This document shows, one piece after another, positions 56,720 through 58,503 of a DNA stretch of 64,000 nt. Source of the stretch: an uncultured Nioella sp. (GTDB taxonomy: Bacteria; Pseudomonadota; Alphaproteobacteria; Rhodobacterales; Rhodobacteraceae); assembly GCA_947498125.1 (NCBI GenBank), contig CANMJH010000001.1, positions 930,001 to 994,000 of the forward strand, written 5' to 3'. Position 1 is the stretch's first letter. Each line of letters starts with the position of its first letter. The notes under the pieces are model-generated. The model was given only the letters and a program-made list of their open reading frames with translations, did no database searches and was not told where the DNA came from. The position numbers were made by a program, and so were the translations under genes.

Positions 56720-57916
56720 TCAGGCAAACTCCTCGGCCAGAAACCGATCGAAATCATCCACACAAGGGCCCCAGATGGGGTCACTTGGGACCACAATGTG
56801 ATTAGGAGAATCGCAAGGGATGAACTCGGCCTCTTGGATGCCGCGTGCGATGTGTTTTGACTGCGCAGGCGATTGAACCGCATCGCCCGAGCAATGCATG
56901 ATCAGGGCGGGCGCTGTGACCAATGGCAATATGGCGCTGACATCTATCTCGCCCACAACCCGGCGAATTTCAGCTGCAATTTCCGGACTGGCCGACACCT
57001 CTTGCATATGCACCAGCGAGTCCAGTTCTTCAGGGGTCGAGCGCGGCGCAAAAACCGTGGCAATCGCCTTCATGAACGGGCTGCCGGCAATCCCCCATCC
57101 TGACTTGATCATCGCCACCATTGTGGCGGTTTGCTCTGGGTGGCCTTGCGCGGTTGAGCCTTGAACCAAACCGTTATTGAGGATCATCCGGCTTACGCGA
57201 TCTGGATGGCGCGCAGCAAAATTCAGTGCCACGGGGACGCTCTGCGAAATTGCGTAAATCGCAAAGCGATCCAGGCCAGCAGCATCGGCCACCGCCTCCA
57301 AGTCATCTGTCATGGTTTCAATAGTGACATGGGAATAATCGACATCGCGATCCGACAGGCCAGTGCCACGTGGATCGTACCGAATGAGGCGGCGATGCGC
57401 CGATTGGCGGGCCAGCAACGGCTCCCAAATCGGGCTTTTTAAATCCTCTTCAAGATGGCTTAGCCAATGCCCGGCCCGCAAAAGCGGCGGTCCCTCACCC
57501 ATCTCGGCCCAAGCAAGGCCCACCCCATCGGGGGCAGATGTATAGCGAATCTTCTGAGTTAAAGCGCGGGCGGGCGCCGTTGCGGTGGGCGCATCCCCCT
57601 GCCCGTCTTCGGTCGTGATTTCGGCAATCAGTTGCACCCCGCGGCGCGGAACGGTCTTGATCACCTCTTGGCGCCGCCCACTATCCCCCAAGGCACTGCG
57701 CGCCGCACTGACGCGCGCCGAAAGCGTGGCATCCGACACGATCCGGCCCTTCCAAATAGCCTCGATCATCTGGTCATAACTGACAAGATCAGGAGCAGAC
57801 ATCGCAAGCAGCGCAATAAGGTCAAAGACTTGTGGTTCCACATGGACGTCGCGCCCGGCCACTTTCAGGTGGTGGCCCGCCACGTCCAACTCGCAATTGG
57901 CAAATCGATAGATCAT
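56720..57916 (-). CDS. Winged-helix DNA-binding domain fused to an alpha/beta hydrolase
   Basis: The 398-residue protein begins with an OmpR/CadC-type winged helix (residues about 1-95, with VEPQVFDLIALL, SDATLSARVSAARSALGD and VIKTVPRRGVQLIAE), but it has no membrane segment. After a linker follows an alpha/beta hydrolase with the oxyanion region RYDPRGTGLSDRD, nucleophile Ser in AISQSVPVAL, Asp in MHCSGDAV and His in SPNHIVV. Start ATG 57916 has AAAAGG upstream. The fusion suggests a ligand- or ester-sensing transcription factor; it is divergent from the small gene at 58068. Confidence 0.85.
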   Translation of the reverse strand: MIYRFANCELDVAGHHLKVAGRDVHVEPQVFDLIALLAMSAPDLVSYDQMIEAIWKGRIVSDATLSARVSAARSALGDSGRRQEVIKTVPRRGVQLIAEITTEDGQGDAPTATAPARALTQKIRYTSAPDGVGLAWAEMGEGPPLLRAGHWLSHLEEDLKSPIWEPLLARQSAHRRLIRYDPRGTGLSDRDVDYSHVTIETMTDDLEAVADAAGLDRFAIYAISQSVPVALNFAARHPDRVSRMILNNGLVQGSTAQGHPEQTATMVAMIKSGWGIAGSPFMKAIATVFAPRSTPEELDSLVHMQEVSASPEIAAEIRRVVGEIDVSAILPLVTAPALIMHCSGDAVQSPAQSKHIARGIQEAEFIPCDSPNHIVVPSDPIWGPCVDDFDRFLAEEFA

Positions 57917-58067
57917 CGGTGCCTTTTCCCCTGATTTGCCAAAAAAATCCATGTTCCAAAGAAAAAACCAGCAGTTCTACAGGGTTTCTTTAGATCGTCT
58001 TCAAGCGCCATCCTCATCCCGGTGGCACAGTTGATGCAACGCAAATGTGAAGATGAGGACCAAAAAG

Positions 58068-58265
58068 ATGACCCATACCCCTGAAATCCGCACCAATGCC
58101 GATGGCTCGATCAACACCGCTCATTACATCGCCCTTGGCCGTAACGCCCGCAGCGCCCAAGCCCATCATCTGACCCATAAAGTTGCGCGCACAACCGTGC
58201 TGACATTGCCCCGTCTGACAGGTGTGATTGTCCTTGCAGTCCTTTTGCTTCCCCTTGCCTTATAA
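58068..58265 (+). CDS. Small single-span membrane protein
   Basis: A 65-residue protein: a polar N terminus (THTPEIRTNADGSINTAHY), a His-rich part and a C-terminal hydrophobic segment (VIVLAVLLLPLAL). GAGGA lies 8 bp before ATG 58068; an earlier ATG at 58047 is less well placed. It is divergent from the winged-helix hydrolase gene, sharing its promoter region, so it may be that regulator's target. Confidence 0.6.
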   Translation: MTHTPEIRTNADGSINTAHYIALGRNARSAQAHHLTHKVARTTVLTLPRLTGVIVLAVLLLPLAL

Positions 58266-58284: not shown

Positions 58285-58503
58285 TCACGCGCCAGAGGCA
58301 ATTAAGTCGCGGACTTTTATCGCTTTTTCGAAGTGATCTAACTTGTGGGTCATGATCCACCATTCAGCCGCTTCCATCAGCAATTCAGGATCATCATTCT
58401 TGTTTGCGAAAAAGGCGTAAAAGGACAAACCGACGCCGTCGCCCTTTTTGGCAAGCTTGTCGTTACATATTGAAATGGCTTTGGCTCTTTGGGCGGGTCT
58501 CAT
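58285..58503 (-). CDS. Small conserved cytoplasmic protein (DUF6500-like)
   Basis: A 72-residue protein with a conserved look: GDGVGLSFYAFFANKNDDPE followed by LLMEAAEWWIMTHKLDHFEK. It probably belongs to the DUF6500 family (name from memory, not verified). It converges with the small membrane protein gene, 19 bp apart. No function is known. Confidence 0.65.
   Translation of the reverse strand: MRPAQRAKAISICNDKLAKKGDGVGLSFYAFFANKNDDPELLMEAAEWWIMTHKLDHFEKAIKVRDLIASGA

Follow-up and report, generated by a model that had tools for sequence, protein, structure and literature searches.

The pho box of the winged-helix regulator PhoB is described as direct repeats with tandem symmetry (PMC3348028), and the hydrolase KAI2 is described as acting as a receptor (PMC10504578). 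The regulator BzdR is thought to have arisen from a DNA-binding domain joined to an enzyme, as stated in PMC3602430, and regulators with a single target are already known, as stated in PMC8249747. For fusions of a hydrolase to a cyclase, the passages of PMC2447327 gave a reference only. Small proteins seldom have a visible regulator, and hydrolase-fused regulators seldom have a visible target; the gene pair described here offers both, together with a footprint between them. The fusion of a winged helix-turn-helix (wHTH) to an alpha/beta hydrolase (ABH) is already in public annotation. We found no description of the module in titles and abstract openings of the open-licence literature, and novelty seems to lie in the conservation of the pair, in the footprint and in the small-protein family. 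Our reading is that the two genes probably form a module, in which a soluble one-component regulator with a hydrolase domain as ligand receptor is dedicated to its small neighbour.

A winged helix fused to an alpha/beta hydrolase

In the window (the whole 64,000-nucleotide stretch that we analysed), we confirmed an open reading frame for a wHTH-alpha/beta hydrolase protein of 410 residues at 57952..56720 on the minus strand. The start is probably the ATG at 57916, giving a regulator of 398 residues (56720..57916, minus strand; from the reading frame, Pfam, alignment and model). Met occupies this position in 10 of 10 proteins of our first alignment, in which we chose the starts of the relatives, and AGGGGAAAAGG lies directly 5' of the codon. 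With this start, the gap to the divergent small gene is 57917-58067, 151 bases, as named in the first-pass annotation. The neighbours in the window are radA, cvpA, a DUF6500 gene and purF, with radA and purF named by their domains. The DUF6500 gene (58285-58503; PF20110, E 2.1e-27) is convergent with the small gene and is not counted in the pair.

The first-pass annotation had proposed a fusion of a CadC-like winged helix to a hydrolase, free of a membrane anchor and with Ser, Asp and His all present, and each of these points was borne out. A Trans_reg_C winged-helix DNA-binding domain occupies residues 33-105 of 410 (57638..57856, minus strand; Pfam E 2.9e-10) and scores 40.5 bits against a cut-off of 26.2, which places it with the OmpR/PhoB-type winged helices. 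Abhydrolase_1 is matched above cut-off at residues 178-274 of the 410-residue frame (E 2.1e-11), and the full alpha/beta hydrolase domain spans residues 122-398 of 398 (56723..57553, minus strand) by Pfam, model and structure comparison. An AlphaFold2 model of the regulator, built from 60 aligned sequences (alignment A4, with L143 left out), has a mean pLDDT of 94.2 and consists of two domains with a loose linker (residues 106-114, pLDDT <50); its winged-helix part has helices at 28-40, 47-55 and 62-75 and strands at 86-102. The linker is polar, and the 19-residue window of highest hydrophobicity (1.67) falls at residues 324-342, within the hydrolase fold. As judged by hydropathy and model, the regulator has no transmembrane helix with periplasmic sensor of the CadC/ToxR type. 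A search for related loci in genome contigs returned one remote hydrolase only. The window's own genome carries a winged-helix paralogue (L002:463-2010) with TPR repeats in place of the hydrolase.

The alignment and the confident model place the nucleophile at S236 of 410 (S224 of 398; 57245..57247), between a strand at 218-223 and a helix at 226-236 of the model, and the alignment places the acid at D357 of 410 (D345 of 398; 56882..56884) and the His at H385 of 410 (H373 of 398; 56798..56800), all on the minus strand. Fold and Ser-acid-His triad together assign the domain to the alpha/beta hydrolase superfamily. Its nucleophile elbow reads A-I-S-Q-S, not the canonical G-x-S-x-G; among 28 regulators facing a small gene of the window's kind (type I, below), the first elbow position is Ala in 22 and Gly in 2, and the last is Gly in 9. 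The triad is complete in 27 of the tree set's 28 type-I regulators, a group that includes L129, omits L127 (an insertion interrupts its match) and so differs by one from the 28 intact pairs counted below, in 20 of the 33 others and in 10 of 13 full-length regulators facing a second kind of small gene (type II, below). It has been lost throughout one clade of eight (L112 and L142-L148), seven of which are without a recognised small gene; L112 retains its small gene, so that in this one clade the loss of the triad and of the small gene coincide only in part. The divergent elbow and the case of L112 both count against the module reading. Another triad-less member, L148, retains the repeats described below.

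In structure comparisons of the model, the hydrolase part matches esterases, haloperoxidases, an enol-lactonase, D14 and RsbQ at Z of about 29-32. Its score for the PcaD 3-oxoadipate enol-lactonase equivalog (TIGR02427) is 63.9 bits against a cut-off of 255.85. The hydrolase domain also has other fusion partners, namely a class III cyclase-like N-terminus in L016 (identified by eye) and a LuxR HTH in L227, and its presence on several outputs is as expected of a portable signalling input. The first-pass annotation had suggested that the protein may sense or hydrolyse its ligand; to judge from the alignments, the kept triad would fit a receptor with slow hydrolysis as well as an active enzyme. 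The protein could be a working esterase or lactonase whose main task is turnover, which binds DNA to regulate its own gene and is assisted by the small protein at the membrane; the triad counts in both types agree with this, and esterases and the enol-lactonase 2xua are among the nearest solved folds. However, the usual elbow glycines are absent in most type-I proteins, no metabolic neighbour is common to all contexts, and the DNA-binding domain is kept in 61 aligned proteins, a count that carries a selection effect since these were chosen as full-length. We consider a working enzyme rather unlikely, and prefer a hydrolase domain that serves as receptor.

Pairing with a small divergent gene

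Divergent from the regulator is a gene for a 65-residue protein (58068..58265, plus strand), which carries the motif IRTxxDGSINTAHYxxxGRxxRS and a hydrophobic C-terminal tail; an in-frame ATG at 58053 would extend it to 70 residues. Entropy at the three codon positions is 0.84/0.83/1.24 in 26 sequences (the window's included; L112, L131, L120, L128 and L129 left out), and because positions 1 and 2 are less variable than position 3, the small gene behaves as coding sequence. Looking for co-conservation of this gene was the check that the first-pass annotation had proposed, and the outcome agreed with it. The window's small protein matched 6 of 81 genomes, its own included, and all six matches are divergent to the best regulator match. 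We built a profile from these six and ran it over 295 genomes of the same family, scoring the best 21 or fewer candidates per genome, so that all counts are lower bounds. At least 37 genomes had a match at E<=0.01, and there were at least 31 matches at E<=1e-6. Of the 31 strong matches listed, 28 stand back to back with an intact wHTH-ABH, two (L130, L131) adjoin decayed regulators, and one (L126) is an orphan without regulator. One genome (G103) holds two copies of the pair. Nine matches were weak (1e-6<E<=0.01); the two that we opened (G256 and G266) both have a divergent wHTH-ABH, interrupted in G266 by the contig end.

The gap between the divergent genes is 134-169 nt in the 28 intact pairs. 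Fifteen of these have cvpA nearby, and in 14 of the fifteen purF stands on the opposite side (the exception, L127, reaches its contig edge). The remaining 13 have no cvpA in the 8-14 kb around, which rules out pure synteny as the source of the co-occurrence; three of them (L103, L121 and L124) have one other neighbour cluster in common, so the 13 settings are not all independent. On a tree of 61 full-length regulators, on which six with a type-II gene were still scored as 'other', the type-I label takes 8 changes, compared with 20.3 in shuffles. The pair counts are therefore inflated by shared ancestry and do not amount to 28 independent events. The label is strongly clustered yet scattered across deep branches, as would be expected of an old association that was lost or replaced in some lines. 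The regulators were drawn from a family scan of the best six or fewer candidates per genome (E cut 1e-40, a subset opened), which again gives lower bounds. In this tree set, 20 of the 61 lack a recognised small gene of either type in front; five of these stand downstream in tandems and one is at a contig edge.

Across 385 genomes of the class, the small-gene profile matched at least 14 genomes (best 16 or fewer candidates per genome scored, hence a lower bound). In five of the 14, the window's own included, a wHTH-ABH is divergent beside the small gene; in one the type-I gene lies beside a wHTH-TPR protein (L217), in one beside the hydrolase-LuxR fusion (L227), and in seven the members are distant, with neither domain within 1.5 kb. 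A regulator profile over 385 class genomes drawn the same way found at least 13 full-length wHTH-ABH proteins (best four or fewer candidates per genome, E cut 1e-85, again lower bounds). Six of the 13 listed have a divergent type-I gene (G000, G474, G350, G334, G500, G666). Of the seven that have none, three lie opposite a protein of some 310 residues (G432, G349, G554), one opposite an OsmC protein (G441), one opposite a second hydrolase (G049) and one opposite a 65-residue ORF with a different sequence (G075); for G386 the search used found no divergent ORF. These seven of 13, like the 20 of 61 in the tree set, count against the module reading, as do the type-I genes that occur without the hydrolase fusion, beside wHTH-TPR in L217 and beside neither domain in the seven class genomes.

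Proteins of 303-319 residues are divergent to a wHTH-ABH at L239:288-1247, L241:2876-3808 and L242:2928-3839; no Pfam match was found for them (2 of 3 scanned), and by eye their E-E-x-x-H stretches resemble a di-iron site. An OsmC protein (PF02566) is divergent to a wHTH-ABH at L244:690-1256, and a similar protein was seen by eye in L030.

Among 28 further loci (L132-L159), we found 14 cases of a type-II small gene, a divergent ORF of 57-71 residues with another N-terminal motif; the motif is our own pattern, and the count of 14 is not independent of it. Type-II genes occur in a subclade, 136-165 bases in front of the regulator, which in one of the 14 (L138) is frame-broken. Homology between type-I and type-II proteins was rejected, with no profile signal (probability 0.2); by eye, the type-II proteins of L136 and L137 end in a hydrophobic tail, like some type-I proteins. 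Four wHTH-hydrolase genes stand in tandem behind one type-II gene at L139:5311-10115 (G311), two in L150, and two in L138, the first being the frame-broken one. A third kind of small protein at the same position is possible, in L133 (G075) and L264 (Acuticoccus); the two proteins have a common C-terminal motif, PxWxGQWxLLxYL. Plasmids carry such pairs as well: in the three records described here, out of 95 with a match, the gene beside the regulator is type I in Shinella sp. HZN7, type II in Ruegeria conchae, and a 61-residue gene of neither type at the same position in Acuticoccus sp. MNP-M23. All three small genes are annotated 'hypothetical protein', and the regulators 'alpha/beta fold hydrolase' or 'winged helix-turn-helix domain-containing protein'.

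The pairing would also suit a small protein that acts mainly as a partner, binding the regulator and feeding back on it as an anti-regulator or membrane tether. Strict pairing of the two genes argues for this, as do L130, where both genes are broken, and L131, where the regulator is broken and the small ORF, though open, has lost motif residues. Small DUF1127 proteins that bind the kinase PhoR, as described in PMC12501420, are a precedent, but they belong to a different family, and the orphan small gene of L126 speaks against a partner role, which we regard as doubtful. That orphan (L126:288-476, in G213) is an intact type-I gene with repeats upstream by eye; another wHTH-ABH of G213 (L143) has lost the triad. 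A small protein that serves as the regulator's dedicated output is the reading that we keep.

The first-pass annotation had called the small product a membrane protein, a description that stands for the window's lineage and fails for the family. The last 17 residues of the window's protein are hydrophobic, and a hydrophobic 17-residue stretch (>1.9 Kyte-Doolittle) occurs in only seven of the 28 intact pairs (the window, L100, L105, L107, L109, L114 and L116). The predicted membrane tail is lineage-specific, and the conserved part is the N-terminal motif, a block of about 30 residues. Alignment A5 omits L112, L120, L128, L129 and L131. A model of the small protein is a single long helix from residue 17 (pLDDT 90.5, pTM 0.48), which says little on its state in the cell. 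Type-I proteins carry a net positive charge, and their non-hydrophobic tails are mostly basic. In L120 the small ORF extends to 147 residues, a possible sign of damage. A toxin-like peptide silenced by the regulator, comparable to small hydrophobic toxins, would also fit the small size, the net positive charge and the hydrophobic tail of some members. However, the tail is confined to those seven pairs, an orphan small gene exists in L126, and the 15 pairs near cvpA lie in DNA that is not visibly mobile, so that we judge a toxin highly improbable.

The type-I family is related at a distance to the RSP_7527 family (NF046098; profile-profile probability 80%, pairwise P 1.5e-5), in comparisons that left out L128, L129 and L131 and trimmed L120 to 40 residues. 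Against the RSP_7527 cut-off of 26 bits, one of four members tried scored 11.7 bits and the window's gave no match; three paired genomes (G014, G081, G122) hold an above-cut-off RSP_7527 gene elsewhere than in the pair. In Rhodobacter sphaeroides, the RSP_7527 mRNA yields the sRNA UdsC and the protein is called hypothetical, as described in PMC9779115. Folding of the regions downstream of the small genes, inspected by eye, revealed no common UdsC-like RNA or terminator element. A phage or plasmid origin was set aside: two of two small proteins tried had no PHROGs match, and the window's had no plasmid match at E<=0.01, though the Shinella plasmid carries a type-I gene.

Direct repeats in the gap

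The gap holds an operator-like footprint, AACCAGCAGTT CTACAGGGTTT CTTTAGATCGT CTTCAAGCGCC (57966..58009, plus strand), whose units stand in 11-bp register. Across 29 gap regions (L112 left out, its gap being identical to that of L111, and L131 left out as decayed), AAG cores are spaced by 11 bp in 36 cases and by 12 bp in 26; dinucleotide shuffles gave 2.6 and 2.7, respectively. TCAAGC is the last unit in 24 of the 29 regions, and five have no exact match. The last repeat starts 60-73 nt ahead of the ATG of the small gene. A conserved GGCA follows 25-28 bases downstream of that starting point and may belong to the promoter. The 14 type-II gaps have repeats as well: AGG 11 bp apart 15 times (1.4 in shuffles), AAG 11 bp apart 9 times (1.4) and AAG 13 bp apart 7 times (1.3), each count being reached in 0 of 300 shuffles. 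The suggestion that the small gene is the regulator's natural target thus gains strong comparative support, from co-occurrence and from a direct-repeat footprint in the very gap that had been named, and stands as a prediction on those grounds.

In the window and its own genome, the three-unit match at 57977-58005 is the only exact one; allowing one mismatch adds one further site in that genome, compared with two in the control. A form of the repeat pattern that omits the 12-bp last step found no match, and with that step the site matches exactly. Across 27 genomes, the pattern CNNNAGNNNNTCTTCAAGC gave 52 matches, compared with 91 for the reversed control, and a broad regulon was rejected. The pattern caught 19 of 28 pair sites and is therefore not sensitive; of the remaining 33 matches elsewhere, 15 were inspected, and one (G282:C3:62568) has a plausible further unit. 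A wider regulon with weaker sites may exist.

We also inspected 12 loci with a related winged helix and no hydrolase. By eye, CAAG-like repeats precede the divergent genes in seven (L023, L024, L025, L028, L029, L035 and L217, the last with a type-I partner), four are without such repeats (L026, L027, L031 and the window's own paralogue L002), and L030 is doubtful. The repeats often track the winged helix whatever its partner, which is our best hint that wHTH-ABH reads them. Another regulator could be the reader of the footprint, and the absence of repeats from L002 by eye counts against the module reading. A footprint that belongs to another regulator or a sigma factor, with wHTH-ABH acting elsewhere, is favored by the four hydrolase-less loci lacking repeats and by the distantly related RSP_7527, whose promoter is described as RpoHII-dependent (PMC8625941). 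Several tandem units are unlike a sigma promoter, however, and the seven hydrolase-less loci show similar repeats whatever gene is divergent, L030 being doubtful; we find a foreign reader improbable and favor wHTH-ABH itself.

A proposed mechanism and its relation to known systems

From the fusion, triad, co-occurrence, divergent arrangement and footprint, as they appear by comparison, we propose the following. The PhoB/CadC-type winged helix would bind the row of direct repeats between the divergent start codons, with the regulator sitting on them as tandem subunits, as PhoB does on the pho box. It would most likely switch on the small gene and adjust its own expression; the position of the last repeat, 60-73 nt upstream, is about that of a PhoB-like activator and favors activation. 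The hydrolase domain would most likely receive the ligand: an ester, a lactone or some comparable small molecule might bind, or be slowly turned over, at the Ser-Asp-His site and so alter the DNA binding or dimerisation of the regulator. The small protein would serve as the dedicated output, acting perhaps at the membrane, perhaps on another protein. We infer both the ligand-to-DNA step and the step from small protein to phenotype. With regulator, target and footprint together, ligand screening is directly testable by a one-promoter reporter.

The regulator has the Trans_reg_C winged helix in common with CadC/ToxR and PhoB/OmpR, and CadC (5ju7) and PhoB-type models are among its sequence matches. 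In sequence, its gap also resembles the pho box, with conserved head-to-tail repeats at 11-12 bp steps adjoining the regulator gene. CadC/ToxR have a membrane anchor, however, and PhoB a receiver domain; this regulator has neither, and its effector domain is an alpha/beta hydrolase. LipJ/Rv1900c hydrolase-cyclase and hydrolase-LuxR fusions (L016, L227) likewise join a related hydrolase to a signalling output (NF058673, E 2.6e-19), whereas the output here is a winged helix, and the LipJ score is 69.3 bits against a cut-off of 800, with no cyclase match. BzdR, whose enzyme-derived domain is shikimate-kinase-like, differs in its domains from the winged helix and alpha/beta hydrolase here. Proteins of the RSP_7527 family are small, mostly basic and helix-like, as type-I proteins are, and the relation is only distant.

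RsbQ (1wom, Z 29.1) and D14/KAI2 (D14 5dj5, Z 29.9) have the same fold as the hydrolase domain, a likeness of fold only, at 16-17% identity; they are stand-alone proteins, whereas the hydrolase here shares a chain with a DNA-binding domain. Should it act as a receptor, bacteria would be shown to couple hydrolase-type perception directly to DNA. More tentatively, and as something short of probable, we suggest a widespread alphaproteobacterial module, in which a hydrolase-receptor on a winged helix controls, through tandem repeats, a single private small-protein output (types I and II, with III as a possible addition); such a module would parallel, within one bacterial protein, the perception of hormones by hydrolases.
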